Part shown: positions 36,964 through 44,210 of the stretch, piece by piece
Layout of the letters: every line of letters begins with the position of its first letter
Position numbering within the stretch: position 1 is the stretch's first letter
Assembly (NCBI RefSeq): GCF_003933245.1
Contig: NZ_QUSX01000001.1
Coordinates: 310,001 to 374,000 of the forward strand
Length of the DNA: 64,000 nucleotides
Direction: 5' to 3'
From: Maribacter algicola
Lineage (GTDB): Bacteria; Bacteroidota; Bacteroidia; Flavobacteriales; Flavobacteriaceae
The notes under the pieces: generated by a model
What the model saw: the letters and a program-made list of their open reading frames with translations, nothing else
What the model was told of the DNA's origin: nothing
The model's database searches: none
Translations under genes and position numbers: made by a program

Positions 36964-37979
36964 TGCGATTGGCATTCCTATTCCTGTTTTTATCCTGTGC
37001 TATCGGTTTTGGACAGTTTGTCAATTTAAATGAATCCGACTTTTCCAAGGCCGATAGCATCGCTTTTTCATATAAAGGACATAGCCTGAAAAACCCGCCT
37101 TTATTGACCTATGAGCTAACCAAGGACCTAACCACGGATGTAGAAAAATTCAGGGCCATTTTCACATGGGTATGCACTAATATTGAGAACGATTACCAAT
37201 CCTATCTGAAAACCCGGAAAAAAAGGAAGAAAATACAAAAGGACAGAGCCCGATTTTTAGCATGGAACGAAAGCTTTACCCCCAAAGTGTTTGAAAAATT
37301 GGTTGCCGAAAAAAGAACGGCCTGTACGGGATATGCCTACCTCATCAAGGAAATGGCAAACTTGGCCGGATTCCAAAGCGAAATCGTAAACGGATACGGC
37401 AGAACGCCCACCTTGCTTTTAGAGGAAAATGACCCGCCAAACCATTCCTGGAATACTGTAAAACTGGATGGAAAATGGTATCTGTGCGATGCCACATGGT
37501 CGGCGGGAAGGATTATGCTCGATGATTCCGGCCCAAGATTTGAACCGGATTATGATGATGTCTACTTCCTGCCAAATCCCGAATTATTCACAAAGAACCA
37601 CTACCCTTTGGAATTGGAACTGTCGCTACTTGAAGAGTTACCATCCCTGACCGATTTCATAGTAGCACCCGTGATTTACAAAGAGGCTTTTAGATTTGGT
37701 ATTGCACCAATCTTACCAGAAAAAATGCACTTGGAGGTTTTACGGGATGTAAACACTTCTTTTGAACTCAAAATACCTGAGGGTTTGGACGTAAAAAAAT
37801 TTAGGCTTGCCCTGAATAAAGGCGGTAAGGATGTGGAAGTTCAGCCAAAAATAACCCTGCTGAAACCTGGGAAAATTCGAATGGAATATACCTTTAATAG
37901 GACCGGACTTTATGACGCCCATATTGTATTTGATGGTGACAAAATTGCTACGTATGTTGTGAAAGTCCGTAGGAATTAA
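36963..37979 (+). CDS. Secreted transglutaminase-like cysteine protease-fold protein
   Basis: 338 residues with signal peptide MRLAFLFLFLSCAIGFG/Q. The transglutaminase-like core has a complete triad: Cys121 (TACTGYAYL), His161 (NHSWN) and Asp176 (CDATW). It is followed by a beta-rich C-terminal domain. It is translationally coupled (TAATG) to the Cys-motif protein. Members of this fold in bacteria are proteases, amidases or crosslinking enzymes; the substrate is unknown. Its stop overlaps the convergent LytTR gene by 4 bp. Confidence 0.88.
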   Translation: MRLAFLFLFLSCAIGFGQFVNLNESDFSKADSIAFSYKGHSLKNPPLLTYELTKDLTTDVEKFRAIFTWVCTNIENDYQSYLKTRKKRKKIQKDRARFLAWNESFTPKVFEKLVAEKRTACTGYAYLIKEMANLAGFQSEIVNGYGRTPTLLLEENDPPNHSWNTVKLDGKWYLCDATWSAGRIMLDDSGPRFEPDYDDVYFLPNPELFTKNHYPLELELSLLEELPSLTDFIVAPVIYKEAFRFGIAPILPEKMHLEVLRDVNTSFELKIPEGLDVKKFRLALNKGGKDVEVQPKITLLKPGKIRMEYTFNRTGLYDAHIVFDGDKIATYVVKVRRN

Positions 37980-38710
37980 AGACTCATTTTGTCCTTGAAA
38001 AGGTAGGATTGTCTTCTAGATACTTCAATTTCTTCGCCGTTGGCCATGGTCAATTTTAGTTTCCCATTAAACCAAGGTACCACATTGGCGATAAAATTTG
38101 TGTTGATAATCTGTTGCCGATTGGCCCTGAAAAAATACTTCTCCGGAAGCTTTTCCTCTACCTGGTTCAAAGATTTGTAGAGCATAGGTTTTTCATCTTG
38201 GAAAAAGACACGGGTATAATTCCCAACAATCTCAAAGTGGGAAATATCCCCCACCTTTATAAGCCAGCATTTTTCACCGTCCTTGATGAAAATTTGACTG
38301 TTACCCGTCAATCGTTCCGTGTTTTCCTTGGTAGTAGCTTCCCTATTTTTGCTGAGTTTTTCCTCCACCTTTTCCATGGCCTGCGCGAAACGTTTTTCAT
38401 TGATGGGTTTTAGCAAATAGTCCAAAGCGTTGTACTCAAAGGATTTTATGGCATATTCATCAAAGGCGGTCGTGAAGATGGTAATTGGAACCTCATCTAA
38501 CATCTCCAAAAGTTCAAAACCGTCTTTTTCGGGCATGTTGATATCCAAAAAAAGTAAATCAGGATTGTGCTCCTCAATAAGTGCAAAACCTTTATCCACA
38601 TTTTCGGCCTCCCCTATGACTTCTATGTTTGGATAGCTTTTGATCAGTTCCTTCAACTCGTTTCTGGCAAGCCGCGAATCCTCTACGATGACTGCTTTAA
38701 TTTGGCTCAT
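37976..38710 (-). CDS. LytTR-family response regulator
   Basis: 244 residues. A receiver domain with phospho-acceptor Asp56 (LLFLDINMP) is followed by a LytTR DNA-binding domain (about 140-244, containing YFFRANRQQIINTNFIANVV). It starts with a 4-bp overlap of the sensor kinase stop, so the two are one operon. LytTR proteins typically bind two imperfect 9-bp direct repeats; a matching site lies at 40215-40244, upstream of a neighbouring gene. Confidence 0.95.
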   Translation of the reverse strand: MSQIKAVIVEDSRLARNELKELIKSYPNIEVIGEAENVDKGFALIEEHNPDLLFLDINMPEKDGFELLEMLDEVPITIFTTAFDEYAIKSFEYNALDYLLKPINEKRFAQAMEKVEEKLSKNREATTKENTERLTGNSQIFIKDGEKCWLIKVGDISHFEIVGNYTRVFFQDEKPMLYKSLNQVEEKLPEKYFFRANRQQIINTNFIANVVPWFNGKLKLTMANGEEIEVSRRQSYLFKDKMSL

Positions 38711-39777
38711 GTTAGTGGGATATTTATGGTCGCTACAACTTCACCATTTATTTCCTCAATGGAGAAATTGGCTTGGTCTCCGTATAAAAGTCGTAACCTT
38801 TGTTTGATGTTCTTGAGCCCCAATTGCGTAGAATCTTCCGCAATTTGCAAGGTTCCTGTATTTAGGACCTTTATAATCAAATCCTGATTCTCAATGCCAG
38901 TAACGAGTTTTATGGTGCCACCCGCTTTGAGTTTGGATATACCATGCTTGGTGGCATTTTCGACCAACAACTGAATAATCATGGGCGGTATTTTAATTTC
39001 CAACGTTTCGCTTTGGACCTCTTTTAAAAATTGCAGTCTATCCTCAAATTGAATCTTGGATAGTGCTATATAGTTATCCACCATTTCCAACTCCTCTACA
39101 AGTTTGATCGAGTTGATATTGTTCTTGGTAAGGGAGTATCGAAGCATTTCTGAGAGCTTGGTCAACATATCCCTTGACTTCTCAACATCCTCCAACATTA
39201 ACCCACGGATGTTATTCAGGCTATTGAACATAAAATGTGGATTAATCTGTCCTTTTAAAGTGTTCAGTTGGGCCTGTCTAAGGCTAGCATTTAGTTCGGC
39301 GCGTTCTACCCTATTTGCGTTGAGCTTTGCTGCTATCTTTACGGATAAATAAAAAATGGTCCAGCCAAAAATCGTAATAAAGGAATTGATCAACATCAAT
39401 CCCAAACCAAATTCCTTGTACATTTCCGGTACCTTAACATCTTCTTCCCCACATTTACCCATATAGTAGCCTGTACCATATGAAAGTCCAAAATAAATAA
39501 GGGAAACCACGGAAATCCCAATTAGAATTTTTAGTATTTGACTGGTCTCAAATGCATCAAAATTGAGTATCCGCTTTAAATAAAATCGTAAAAGACTCGT
39601 GGAAAAGACGCCTATTAAAAAGGTGGACAAAAGACCGTATTTGAACAGGTTGGTGGCTTTGTACCCGTCAGCATCCGGTGTAAAGGCATAAGCGATAAAT
39701 ACCAGACCACCCCAGGAAAGGAGCTGGACCAACCAAAATGAAATTGCCCATCTATGTTTTTTTATAAAGGAAGCCAT
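38707..39777 (-). CDS. LytS-type sensor histidine kinase (His_kinase/HATPase)
   Basis: 356 residues. Four membrane helices (about 10-31, 46-63, 82-101 and 123-146), a coiled linker, then the phospho-acceptor region QINPHFMFNSLNNIRG with His181, the N box LLVENATKHGI and GLKNIKQRLRLLYG of the ATPase. The sensor input is confined to the membrane/periplasmic loops, one of which contains the Cys-rich GYYMGKCGEEDV. It pairs with the LytTR regulator downstream. The signal is unknown. Confidence 0.94.
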   Translation of the reverse strand: MASFIKKHRWAISFWLVQLLSWGGLVFIAYAFTPDADGYKATNLFKYGLLSTFLIGVFSTSLLRFYLKRILNFDAFETSQILKILIGISVVSLIYFGLSYGTGYYMGKCGEEDVKVPEMYKEFGLGLMLINSFITIFGWTIFYLSVKIAAKLNANRVERAELNASLRQAQLNTLKGQINPHFMFNSLNNIRGLMLEDVEKSRDMLTKLSEMLRYSLTKNNINSIKLVEELEMVDNYIALSKIQFEDRLQFLKEVQSETLEIKIPPMIIQLLVENATKHGISKLKAGGTIKLVTGIENQDLIIKVLNTGTLQIAEDSTQLGLKNIKQRLRLLYGDQANFSIEEINGEVVATINIPLT

Positions 39778-39807
39778 ACGGGAATGTAAAGGTAATTATA
39801 GGGGGAA

Positions 39808-39841
39808 CAAAAAAATAGTTTCAGCCAAATAGGCTGAAACT
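39808..39841 (-). terminator. Rho-independent terminator after the small membrane protein gene
   Basis: A perfect 10-bp stem agtttcagcc/ggctgaaact (39817-39826 and 39832-39841) with a 5-base loop is followed on the minus strand by a run of about seven T (39809-39815). It would end transcription from the gene at 39941-40141 before the histidine kinase, so the two-component operon must have its own promoter in the short gap or be fed by read-through. Confidence 0.85.
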
Positions 39842-39940
39842 AAAATAAGATTTGAATTACCAATACCATAATAAATTTTACAATTGCAATCATGCTATTT
39901 GTTTTTGTGATTAATGGATTCGGTCGATAACACTCTTTTG

Positions 39941-40141
39941 CTACTTGATGATTTTCTTACTGGAGATTTCTTCTTTGTTTTCTTTGTGCAATAGAGAAAC
40001 TCCAACTAGGATCAACCCGGCATACAGCGGAAAAAAGTAGTTCATTAAGTTTAAATCATTTAAAGCTCCTAAAAGGGATACCAATACGGTTAAGGTCCCT
40101 ATGGCTAATACAGTTACTTTAGTTTTGTCGATTGTTTTCAT
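39941..40141 (-). CDS. Small two-helix membrane protein, putative LytTR target
   Basis: 66 residues with two membrane segments (VTVLAIGTLTVLVSLLGAL and NYFFPLYAGLILVGVSLL) and a charged tail (HKENKEEISSKKIIK). No family is recognised. It lies between the DUF4136 gene and the LytTR kinase/regulator operon on the same strand, has its own terminator and a LytTR-type operator about 75-105 bp upstream, so it is a candidate target of that system. Small membrane proteins are common LytTR targets in other bacteria. Confidence 0.78.
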   Translation of the reverse strand: MKTIDKTKVTVLAIGTLTVLVSLLGALNDLNLMNYFFPLYAGLILVGVSLLHKENKEEISSKKIIK

Positions 40142-40173
40142 GATGTTGTTTTTTAATTGTTAATACTACGATG

Positions 40174-40181
40174 TAAAACTA
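40174..40181 (-). promoter_or_regulatory. -7 element of the small membrane protein gene
   Basis: On the minus strand the sequence is TAGTTTTA, a one-mismatch form of TAnnTTTG. The -33 position, 19 bp upstream, carries a poor match, as expected for a promoter needing an activator. It lies 33 bp downstream of the direct-repeat pair at 40215-40244, a spacing compatible with activation. Confidence 0.45.
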
Positions 40182-40214
40182 TAGAGCCATCTCGAGAAAA
40201 CTAAAAGGTTTATG

Positions 40215-40244
40215 ACGAACGGTAGAAAGTCGTCACCGAACGGA
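40215..40244 (-). promoter_or_regulatory. Putative LytTR-regulator binding site (direct repeats)
   Basis: Read on the minus strand: TCCGTTCGG (40236-40244), a 12-bp spacer, then ACCGTTCGT (40215-40223). Both 9-mers fit the LytTR consensus as I recall it, [TA][AC][CA]GTTN[AG][TG], and the 12-bp spacer is the classical value. The site lies upstream of the small membrane protein gene next to the LytTR operon. This is a sequence match; binding is not shown. Confidence 0.7.
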
Positions 40245-40315
40245 AGTTTTTCCTAGATAAATTGTAATATATTGAAAATCAATTATTTAAAACCTATAAA
40301 TTGAGGCTACCATTC

Positions 40316-40359
40316 CTCAAAAACCCTATATACTAGAGCTTGGCGAAGAAAAATAGGGT
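40316..40359 (-). terminator. Possible weak terminator of the DUF4136 gene
   Basis: A 7-bp perfect inverted repeat, accctat/atagggt (40323-40329 and 40353-40359), with a 23-bp loop is followed on the minus strand by TTTTTGA. The long loop and short T-run make this a weak candidate; it lies 26 bp after the DUF4136 stop. Confidence 0.4.
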
Positions 40360-40384
40360 ATTTAAAAAAGTCTTTTGGAAACTA

Positions 40385-40912
40385 TTATTTTCTGGTTTTG
40401 GGCGGGTACTTTTCAAATATTTCAGCAACTAGTTCTTGCATTTTTTCTTCTTTTATGGTAGGTGGGGCACCCTCTTTATATGGCTGTGTACCGATCGCCT
40501 GCCAAACCAATACATCCTTTCTGGCATCGATGAAGTTAATTTCAATTTCCCGGGTAAGATTGGGACTCCCAACAGGAATCCCCACGGATACGCCACCACC
40601 GAGGCCCCCATTGCCACCACCAAGTCCAACGCCCATGGTGTTACCTGATTGGCTTTCAAAAATCAAGCTTTTTACATCTATTAGGAGGTCTGGTTCTTCA
40701 GAAAATTTTAAGCCCTTGGATTGGAGTGTTATATCCATGGCCCTAAAGAAGCGTTTCTCGTCTAGTTCAGGAATACCGGTCTGCATGTCCTCTAAATAAT
40801 TATAGGTATTATAGGCGGAAAAATCCGATTCCCGCTCATAATCGTAGTTTACTTTTATGGTGCTGCACGATACAAAAAGTAGCATCAGCACTAGTATATA
40901 TAAATATTTCAT
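40385..40912 (-). CDS. DUF4136-domain lipoprotein
   Basis: 175 residues. A lipoprotein signal ends at Cys16 (LVLMLLFVSC). The mature domain begins VNYDYERESDFSAYNTYNYL, the recognisable start of DUF4136, and contains a glycine-rich loop (GVGLGGGNGGLGGGVSVGIP). The family is periplasmic and of unknown function. A short inverted repeat, ctcga-tag-tcgag, lies at 40926-40938 in the leader. It is monocistronic by orientation and spacing. Confidence 0.88.
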   Translation of the reverse strand: MKYLYILVLMLLFVSCSTIKVNYDYERESDFSAYNTYNYLEDMQTGIPELDEKRFFRAMDITLQSKGLKFSEEPDLLIDVKSLIFESQSGNTMGVGLGGGNGGLGGGVSVGIPVGSPNLTREIEINFIDARKDVLVWQAIGTQPYKEGAPPTIKEEKMQELVAEIFEKYPPKTRK

Positions 40913-43103: not shown

Positions 43104-44210
43104 CTATAATGAATCAATGACCTTTGTCAAACGTTGGGTAATCTCATCGATGCTTCCAATTCCATTGACACTATGAAATTTATGTTGCTCCTCATAGTAA
43201 TCCTTTAAAGGTGCCGTCTTTGAATTATATTCCTCAAACCTGTTCCTAATCTTGGATACATCCTGATCATCAGACCTACCGCTATTCTTCCCTCTTTCCA
43301 AAAGGCGCTCTATAAGGATATCATCGTTTGCTTCCAGCGCTATGGTGGCATCCACTTTCATATCCTTGGATTCCAAAAAATTGTCCAAGGCCTCTGCCTG
43401 GGCGGTCGTCCTAGGAAAACCGTCGAAAATAAATCCATCGGCATCCGGATTTTTATCCACTTCGTCCTCCAACATTTTTATTGTCACCTCATCAGGCACC
43501 AATTCGCCTTTATCAATATAGGATTTTGCCAAGGTTCCCAATTCCGTACCATTTTTAATATTATAACGGAACACATCTCCCGTAGAAATATGTTTTAAGT
43601 TATACTTCTCCTTTAAAAATTGGGCTTGTGTGCCCTTGCCCGCCCCTGGTTTTCCAAACAGTACAAGATTGATCATATATTTTTGGTTTAATTGGTAAAC
43701 TTCCCTAAGATTCCTTCCTAATTCCTTGTAATCCAGCCCATACCCTACTATAAATTTATCCGGAATCTCAAGCCCTACATAATCGATGGCATATTCGCCA
43801 TTATAGACTTCCGCTTTATAAAAAAGGCTCGCAATCTTAAATTCCTTCACCTTGGTATTGCTGAACAAGTGCACCAATTTCTGCAAGGTGCGTCCTGTAT
43901 CGATGATATCCTCTAGAATGATGATACTTCGCCCTTCAATATTGTCCGGCACATCCAACAAGGTTTCCACGATACCCGTAGAGGTAAGCCCTTGGTAGGA
44001 GCTTAACTTAACGAACGAGACTTCGCATGAATAGGGGTATTCCTTTAGAAAATCAGATACAAACATAAAGGCCCCATTGAGAACCCCTACAAAAATGGGC
44101 GTATCATCCTTGTAGTCCACGGCAATTTCCTGTGCCATCCGCTGAATGGCCCCCAAGATTTGCTTTTCACTAAGAAAAGGTTTGAAATATTTGTCGTGTA
44201 ACCGTATCAA
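43104..44210 (-). CDS. adk: Fused hypoxanthine phosphoribosyltransferase / adenylate kinase
   Basis: 368 residues in two parts. Residues 1-177 are an HPRT with the PRPP loop EDIIDTGRT (100-108). From Met179 an adenylate kinase follows with P-loop GKPGAGKGT (186-194), NMP-binding region and a short LID (GKNSGRSDDQDVSK) rather than the zinc-bearing type. The two reactions, salvage of hypoxanthine/guanine and AMP/ADP interconversion, both concern purine nucleotides. An internal ATG at 43676 sits exactly at the kinase domain, so a separate kinase product is possible. The fusion appears in other flavobacteria to my knowledge. Confidence 0.94.
   Translation of the reverse strand: MIRLHDKYFKPFLSEKQILGAIQRMAQEIAVDYKDDTPIFVGVLNGAFMFVSDFLKEYPYSCEVSFVKLSSYQGLTSTGIVETLLDVPDNIEGRSIIILEDIIDTGRTLQKLVHLFSNTKVKEFKIASLFYKAEVYNGEYAIDYVGLEIPDKFIVGYGLDYKELGRNLREVYQLNQKYMINLVLFGKPGAGKGTQAQFLKEKYNLKHISTGDVFRYNIKNGTELGTLAKSYIDKGELVPDEVTIKMLEDEVDKNPDADGFIFDGFPRTTAQAEALDNFLESKDMKVDATIALEANDDILIERLLERGKNSGRSDDQDVSKIRNRFEEYNSKTAPLKDYYEEQHKFHSVNGIGSIDEITQRLTKVIDSL

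Follow-up and report, generated by a model that had tools for sequence, protein, structure and literature searches.

Comparative tests suggest that the two 9-mers at 40215-40244 of the window (the whole 64-kb stretch of DNA analysed here) behave as a real operator, and that the unit around them is wider than the original prediction supposed. We lean towards an explanation in which a LytTR response regulator would activate a small operon, and the membrane peptides encoded there would feed back on the neighboring kinase; taken as a whole, we hold it to be slightly better than an even guess. The central product of the unit is probably a tiny peptide, encoded by a 17-codon ORF. The features of the unit are as follows.

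40215..40244, minus strand: LytTR-type operator TCCGTTCGG-12 bp-ACCGTTCGT, located by pattern search and kept in all 13 congeners that have the gene downstream of it
40211..40214, minus strand: CATA abutting the second half-site, read from the sequence
40174..40181, minus strand: putative -7 promoter box TAGTTTTA, starting 33 nt past the operator
39941..40141, minus strand: 66-aa two-helix membrane protein, the first gene past the operator in the window species
39840..39893, minus strand: 17-codon ORF MIAIVKFIMVLVIQILF for a tiny hydrophobic peptide, recognized by conservation and coding signature
39809..39840, minus strand: terminator-like hairpin and T run GTTTCAGCC-TATTT-GGCTGAAAC-TATTTTTTT, directly past the peptide stop (by eye)
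38707..39777, minus strand: membrane histidine kinase with about four transmembrane segments followed by PF06580, from hydropathy and Pfam
37976..38710, minus strand: response regulator with a LytTR DNA-binding domain, from Pfam

The operator, its promoter and the two-component genes

Two 9-mers with a gap of exactly 12 bp are present at the predicted place, on the minus strand, and they are more than a chance occurrence. The pattern TCCGTTCGG-N12-ACCGTTCGT makes one match in the 64-kb window and none in 100 dinucleotide-preserving shuffles, and the exact pair is a single occurrence genome-wide. When up to three mismatches are allowed, the whole genome has 8 sites, fewer than the 14 that the reversed control pattern gives, and the weak genome sites therefore look like noise. 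The operator fits the LytTR form given in a passage of PMC4847170, two repeats of 9-11 nt set 11-13 nt apart; here it is 9 + 12 + 9, and related loci share the spacing. The predicted -7 element is also found 33 bp from the repeats, with TAGTTTTA at 40174-40181 beginning 33 nt after them. In F. psychrophilum the -7 consensus is TAnnTTTG at -12 to -5, as stated in a passage of PMC9723704. By that position the start site would lie about 12 nt past the first base of the -7 box, and therefore the repeats would occupy about -75 to -46, an activator's place. Rfam gives only two weak matches in 39600-40400, both below gathering scores.

The same arrangement recurs in 48 operators that were chosen by half-sites alone at related kinase loci. 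CATA follows the repeat directly in all 48. A strict TAnnTTT box, sought with no distance limit, is 33 nt away in 36 of the 48, with the next commonest distance in 5, and it lies at 32-34 nt in 38, which places the repeats just upstream of a promoter. The operator-promoter is thus fully readable from the sequence as two half-sites, CATA, 33 nt and a -7 box, and target genes should therefore be predictable genome by genome.

The original gene calls, the 66-aa gene at 39941-40141 and the kinase and LytTR genes at 37976-39777, hold when examined by ORFs and Pfam. The kinase matches His_kinase PF06580 at 1.6e-25 (Pfam) and no other Pfam domain above cut-off. The response regulator has PF00072, plus LytTR PF04397 at 6.9e-23 (Pfam). 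A PF06580 kinase adjoins a receiver-LytTR regulator, as expected for a LytS/LytTR two-component system.

Conservation and specificity of the operator

Of 36 congeneric genomes, the same 13 contain the operator at 0 mismatches, the 66-aa gene and a regulator orthologue (at least 79% identity), and a further five congeners have only a 49-53% relative of the regulator. The operator search in these genomes also gives two one-mismatch strays (G006 and G023) and one reversed-control hit. The expectation that the repeats are conserved wherever the LytTR system and the small gene occur together is borne out in the genus: all 13 genomes with the gene have the repeats upstream of it, and the 23 genomes without the gene lack them at one mismatch or less. 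Outside the genus it is borne out in part. Seven family genomes have a distant 66-aa match, and one fixed repeat-pair pattern finds the repeats at L071, L072, L074 and L076 and misses them at L073, L075 and L077. All 13 congeners could belong to a single lineage, so their co-occurrence is one strong association and not 13 events.

Across 397 genomes of the family, the strict operator has 7 sites in 7 genomes (the window's own included), compared with 2 reversed-control hits. All seven lie about 0.4-1.8 kb from a kinase relative, and such a relative (E up to 1e-55) is present in 45 of the 397 genomes. Only 7 of 30 family kinase loci match a further, narrower repeat pattern, because many relatives use ACCACT-type half-sites that fall outside it. 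A GTDB-wide set was assembled as 79 kinase loci from the best 80 of 565 relatives, the nearest named ones being Maribacter. The composite operator (repeat, CAT and -7 box, with the box taken at 31-35 nt only) is found at 57 of these 79 loci, and the distance to the box is 33 nt in all sites listed but four, which show 32 nt. The other 22 loci have no composite operator within the sequence searched, up to 4 kb upstream (just 170 and 401 bp for L155 and L188).

The kinase tree has 77 rows, three of the 80 being left out for short open frames. The window kinase falls in a 31-row clade (100/99) that has the peptide throughout. The 26-row sister clade is mixed, with the peptide in 7 rows and, by the filter described below, without it in 19; in several of these 19, an operator is followed by a different tiny ORF. 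All these counts refer to the best 80 of 565 relatives. ORF translations also show a doubled-kinase form, with tandem kinase-like genes before the regulator, at L101, L102, L105, L106, L110 and L068.

The operator appears to be specific for this kinase type. None of the genome's 13 other LytTR matches has a composite site within 1.5 kb; the corresponding interval of the window's own regulator (L014) has the same 1.5-kb flanks, from which the operator is out of reach. Eight loci of a distant kinase type (31-36% identity; L062-L067, L069 and L070) show neither a composite operator nor a peptide carrying lysine-6; in L062, L066, L067 and L070 a loose filter picks up a few short hydrophobic frames that are unrelated. 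The composite site is also absent at L068, the own system of genome G029. In 26 operator-bearing genomes, 37 of 40 composite sites fall at the kinase locus, where each genome has one or two; these genomes were preselected for the operator, and its presence in 26 of 26 is not independent. The other three sites are elsewhere, at the 3-mismatch limit, and the reversed control gives 6 matches. Because 37 of the 40 sit at the kinase locus, the regulator seems to serve one locus. At L062, one of the distant loci, an ABC transporter whose permease is M1-peptidase-like (by eye) adjoins a second LytS/LytTR pair, and this operator and peptide are absent there.

The repeats might instead reflect resemblance by chance or shared ancestry, or another LytTR regulator might bind them, the genome having 14 LytTR matches. 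If the 13 congeners are one clade, their co-occurrence is one event, as such a view would have it. However, the operator recurs with the same kinase clade across many genera whose sequences have diverged, the 21-bp spacing and the promoter distance are kept across those genera, and the 13 other LytTR genes, which have no such operator within 1.5 kb, speak against a different regulator. We regard this alternative as extremely improbable. The assignment of the predicted site to the adjacent system, as first proposed, is well supported by comparison.

The 17-codon peptide gene and the 66-aa protein

The 17-codon ORF is present in all 12 Maribacter loci with sequence at that place, and its length is constant at 17 codons. 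In G029, the thirteenth genome, a 20-residue relative stands next to the kinase on a separate contig (L068). Across 11 distinct sequences, codon position 3 varies in 15/16 and position 2 in 2/16, and the mean dN is 0.19 compared with a mean dS of 1.72 (32 of 55 pairs with positive dS). Judged by this substitution pattern, the ORF is evolving as coding DNA. Its stop runs straight into the terminator-like hairpin in the window, which could point to a leader peptide whose attenuation governs read-through into the kinase gene. Amino-acid conservation amid many synonymous changes argues against such a leader, as does the order in other genera, where the 66-70-aa gene comes next and not a terminator and the kinase. 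The hairpin itself is missing in 5 of the 12 Maribacter loci and weaker in three (by eye), and we consider a leader role very unlikely.

Relatives of the peptide are widespread. A 16-20-residue relative lies upstream of the kinase at 39 of 79 loci (best 80 of 565), while the control placements give 1 (opposite strand), 0 and 1 (both downstream), with a shuffle mean of 0.0. The filter requires 16-20 residues, lysine at position 6, a hydrophobic residue at position 2 and high hydrophobicity, at most 1500 bp upstream; positions 3, 10 and 14 are free of this selection. Applied to both strands of the 64-kb window, it returns the 39840-39893 ORF only. In the family set, such a peptide lies upstream in 18 of 30 kinase loci (by eye, from the hydrophobicity filter). 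ORFs of 16-20 residues are short enough that gene callers probably skip them.

When the 200 bp ahead of the peptide are scanned for the best repeat with 21-bp spacing, at most 2 of 100 shuffles score as high at 31 of the 39 peptide loci, and the repeats mostly start 93 to 125 nt ahead of the start codon. The eight loci beyond this limit are L114, L117, L126, L127, L137, L139, L140 and L142; in L114 and L117, both Maribacter, the strict operator is further upstream, ahead of the 66-aa gene. The peptide is the first frame past an operator in 34 of the 57 composite-operator loci (by eye). Maribacter itself, in which the 66-aa gene is the leading one, shows two layouts. In 4 of the 12 loci, one of which is the window's own, just 34-51 nt separate the 66-aa gene from the peptide behind it and no operator intervenes, and in 7 a second operator-like repeat is found directly before the peptide. 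L056 fits neither layout, and no second operator is found in it. A lipoprotein-like gene of about 107-119 codons lies between the 66-aa gene and the peptide in L053, L054 and L055.

The 66-aa two-helix protein was originally taken as the target and possible effector of the system. It turns out to be neither the sole target nor the most widespread one: its family, by HMM, is found at 22 of 79 kinase loci (best 80 of 565), all upstream on the kinase strand, compared with 39 of 79 for the peptide. We dropped the two-helix gene as the only target because the peptide proved more widespread. Among the matches listed, Allomuricauda and Flagellimonas have the operator, peptide, two-helix protein and kinase in this order. 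The 66-aa protein matches no Pfam family above cut-off, with one weak sub-threshold match at E 0.046, and has no NCBIfam match. From its distribution, it is a second, less widespread partner.

The position after the operator is also held by other tiny ORFs. At the 40 loci without the peptide, 28 operator-like sites are found within 3.5 kb upstream, compared with 1.1 in shuffles. In 18 of these 28 rows another tiny hydrophobic ORF of 18-48 residues is next (by eye), and among the remaining rows a hydrolase or lipoprotein gene is next. By a separate rule, an ORF of 15-50 residues lies shortly past the promoter in 49 of 79 loci (best 80 of 565). In Flavobacterium and Cellulophaga loci (L148, L149, L151, L152, L157, L160 and L161), the operator is followed by ORFs of 34-44 residues that contain one hydrophobic stretch. 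A GF..G[FY]-like stretch recurs in several of these and resembles the end of the neighbor protein in L124 and L128.

The peptide shows a narrow polar face. In 36 distinct peptides, polar residues are found at position 3 in 17, at position 10 in 28 and at position 14 in 34; position 6 is polar in all 36 by selection. Elsewhere in the first 17 residues only 5 cells in total are polar. Positions 3, 6, 10 and 14 make one face of a helix. The size of the 17-aa peptide is comparable to small type I toxins and phenol-soluble modulins, and the peptide could be the output itself, membrane-active or part of an envelope-stress response, with the kinase sensing the membrane state. Its 17 strongly hydrophobic residues, polar almost only on that one face, agree with such an output, as does a mean hydrophobic moment of 0.303 compared with 0.185 in shuffled peptides. 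Differing tiny hydrophobic ORFs (17-48 aa) hold the post-operator place in related systems, as if membrane activity outweighs sequence. However, taken individually, only 9 of the 36 peptides have a moment above 95% of their own shuffles, and we think it unlikely that the peptide acts in this way.

The composite operator also precedes larger genes. At nine loci it stands before an S9 peptidase gene beside the unit: L119 (-2840 from the kinase match start), L120, L121, L128, L131, L136, L138, L153 and L162. The large gene of L119 is Peptidase_S9 at 1.7e-46 (Pfam), and the other eight proteins match it at 52-86% identity; the peptidase has a signal-like N terminus (by eye). In L146, L154 and L156 (two Kordia loci and one MAG of Bizionia), the operator is before an alpha/beta hydrolase gene with no tiny peptide, at about -1550 to -1630 from the kinase, the Pfam basis being L154. 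The S9 peptidase, hydrolase and lipoprotein targets would fit nutrient use or peptide turnover equally with feedback.

An operator, a peptide and a kinase together also make the layout of peptide quorum sensing. The peptide might be an exported autoinducer sensed by the kinase in a positive loop, with the co-regulated S9 peptidase destroying or trimming it, and the nine loci with the operator before the peptidase gene as well would suit such a loop. Agr/Com-type pheromones are processed, exported signal peptides with a dedicated exporter, and Agr/Com receptors belong to a kinase type other than PF06580. Here, the kinase is of PF06580 type, unlike those receptors, the peptide is without a separate leader, and reading by eye of the ORFs that surround the window unit (with Pfam on seven) shows neither an exporter nor a processing enzyme. 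These differences make a secreted signal doubtful, and we rate it below the role as membrane-active output.

Proposed mechanism and relation to known systems

In the mechanism that we favor, the activated regulator would bind both half-sites at 40215-40244, which lie about 46 to 75 bp ahead of the predicted start of transcription. Binding would turn on a housekeeping-type promoter, this position being suggestive of activation rather than repression. The transcript would code for both the 66-residue two-helix protein and the 17-residue hydrophobic peptide with its one narrow polar face. Both products are expected to remain in the inner membrane, and they would most likely feed back on the four-helix kinase, tuning or ending the response. 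A small peptide induced by the system, beside a membrane-embedded sensor, would most simply act in the membrane on that sensor, by analogy with MgrB and PhoQ. Given the rest of the mechanism, we place the feedback role somewhat short of an even chance. MgrB, the model for this step, is described in a passage of the literature as a 47-aa membrane protein of the PhoQ/PhoP regulon that inhibits the PhoQ kinase; the window peptide, in contrast, has 17 aa and is encoded adjacent to its kinase.

A more far-reaching form of this idea takes the 17-residue peptide itself as a signal or modulator read by the kinase, the 66-70-aa protein as its partner in the membrane and the co-regulated peptidase of some genera as its remover, which would make a new flavobacterial class of two-component system. 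We offer this form tentatively and consider it rather improbable.

The LytS/LytTR kind of system is already known. BtsS/BtsR-yjiY of E. coli is a LytS/LytTR system with tandem repeats and one or very few targets. The window regulator is below the cut-off of the BtsR model NF008677 (NCBIfam; 168.1 compared with 246 bits). The yjiY site of BtsR stands under the name YehT in the oligo table, in the part of PMC4847170 that lists it. YpdA/YpdB-yhjX of E. coli, as a passage of PMC4847170 presents it, is like the window system in its LytS-type kinase, its LytTR regulator and its two LytTR-spaced tandem repeats. YpdB has one target promoter in the same passage, and here likewise there is one or very few per genome; however, the YpdB target is a putative transporter, whereas here it is tiny membrane peptides beside the kinase.

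The HdrRM/BrsRM LytTR Regulatory Systems, in the passage of PMC6193735 that describes them, have 9-bp repeats with 12-bp spacing, as here, the example being ACCACTTAT-12 bp-ACCGCTTAT just upstream of the promoter. Both they and the window unit combine a LytTR regulator with a membrane protein. However, that passage sets HdrRM/BrsRM apart from two-component systems, with the membrane protein inhibiting the regulator itself, whereas the window has a kinase gene and a receiver domain and so differs from an HdrRM-type regulator that has no kinase partner. The 'LRS-like' operons of Bacteroides, in the same source passage, have 11-bp repeats with 11-bp spacing, compared with 9 bp and 12 bp here.

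Apart from these Bacteroides operons (PMC6193735), the open-licence literature, among the matches listed, has no LytTR target promoter from Bacteroidota, and no description there of this operator, peptide or signalling unit was found. The dedicated peptide output is thus without a report in the open-licence matches listed. The comparison brings to light hydrophobic peptides of 16-20 residues that form a family linked to one kinase clade, and the effect of such peptides on sensor kinases becomes directly testable. Elsewhere in the window, the minus-strand ORF at 43104-44210 is an apparent fusion of a phosphoribosyltransferase-like half and an adenylate kinase-like half (by eye).
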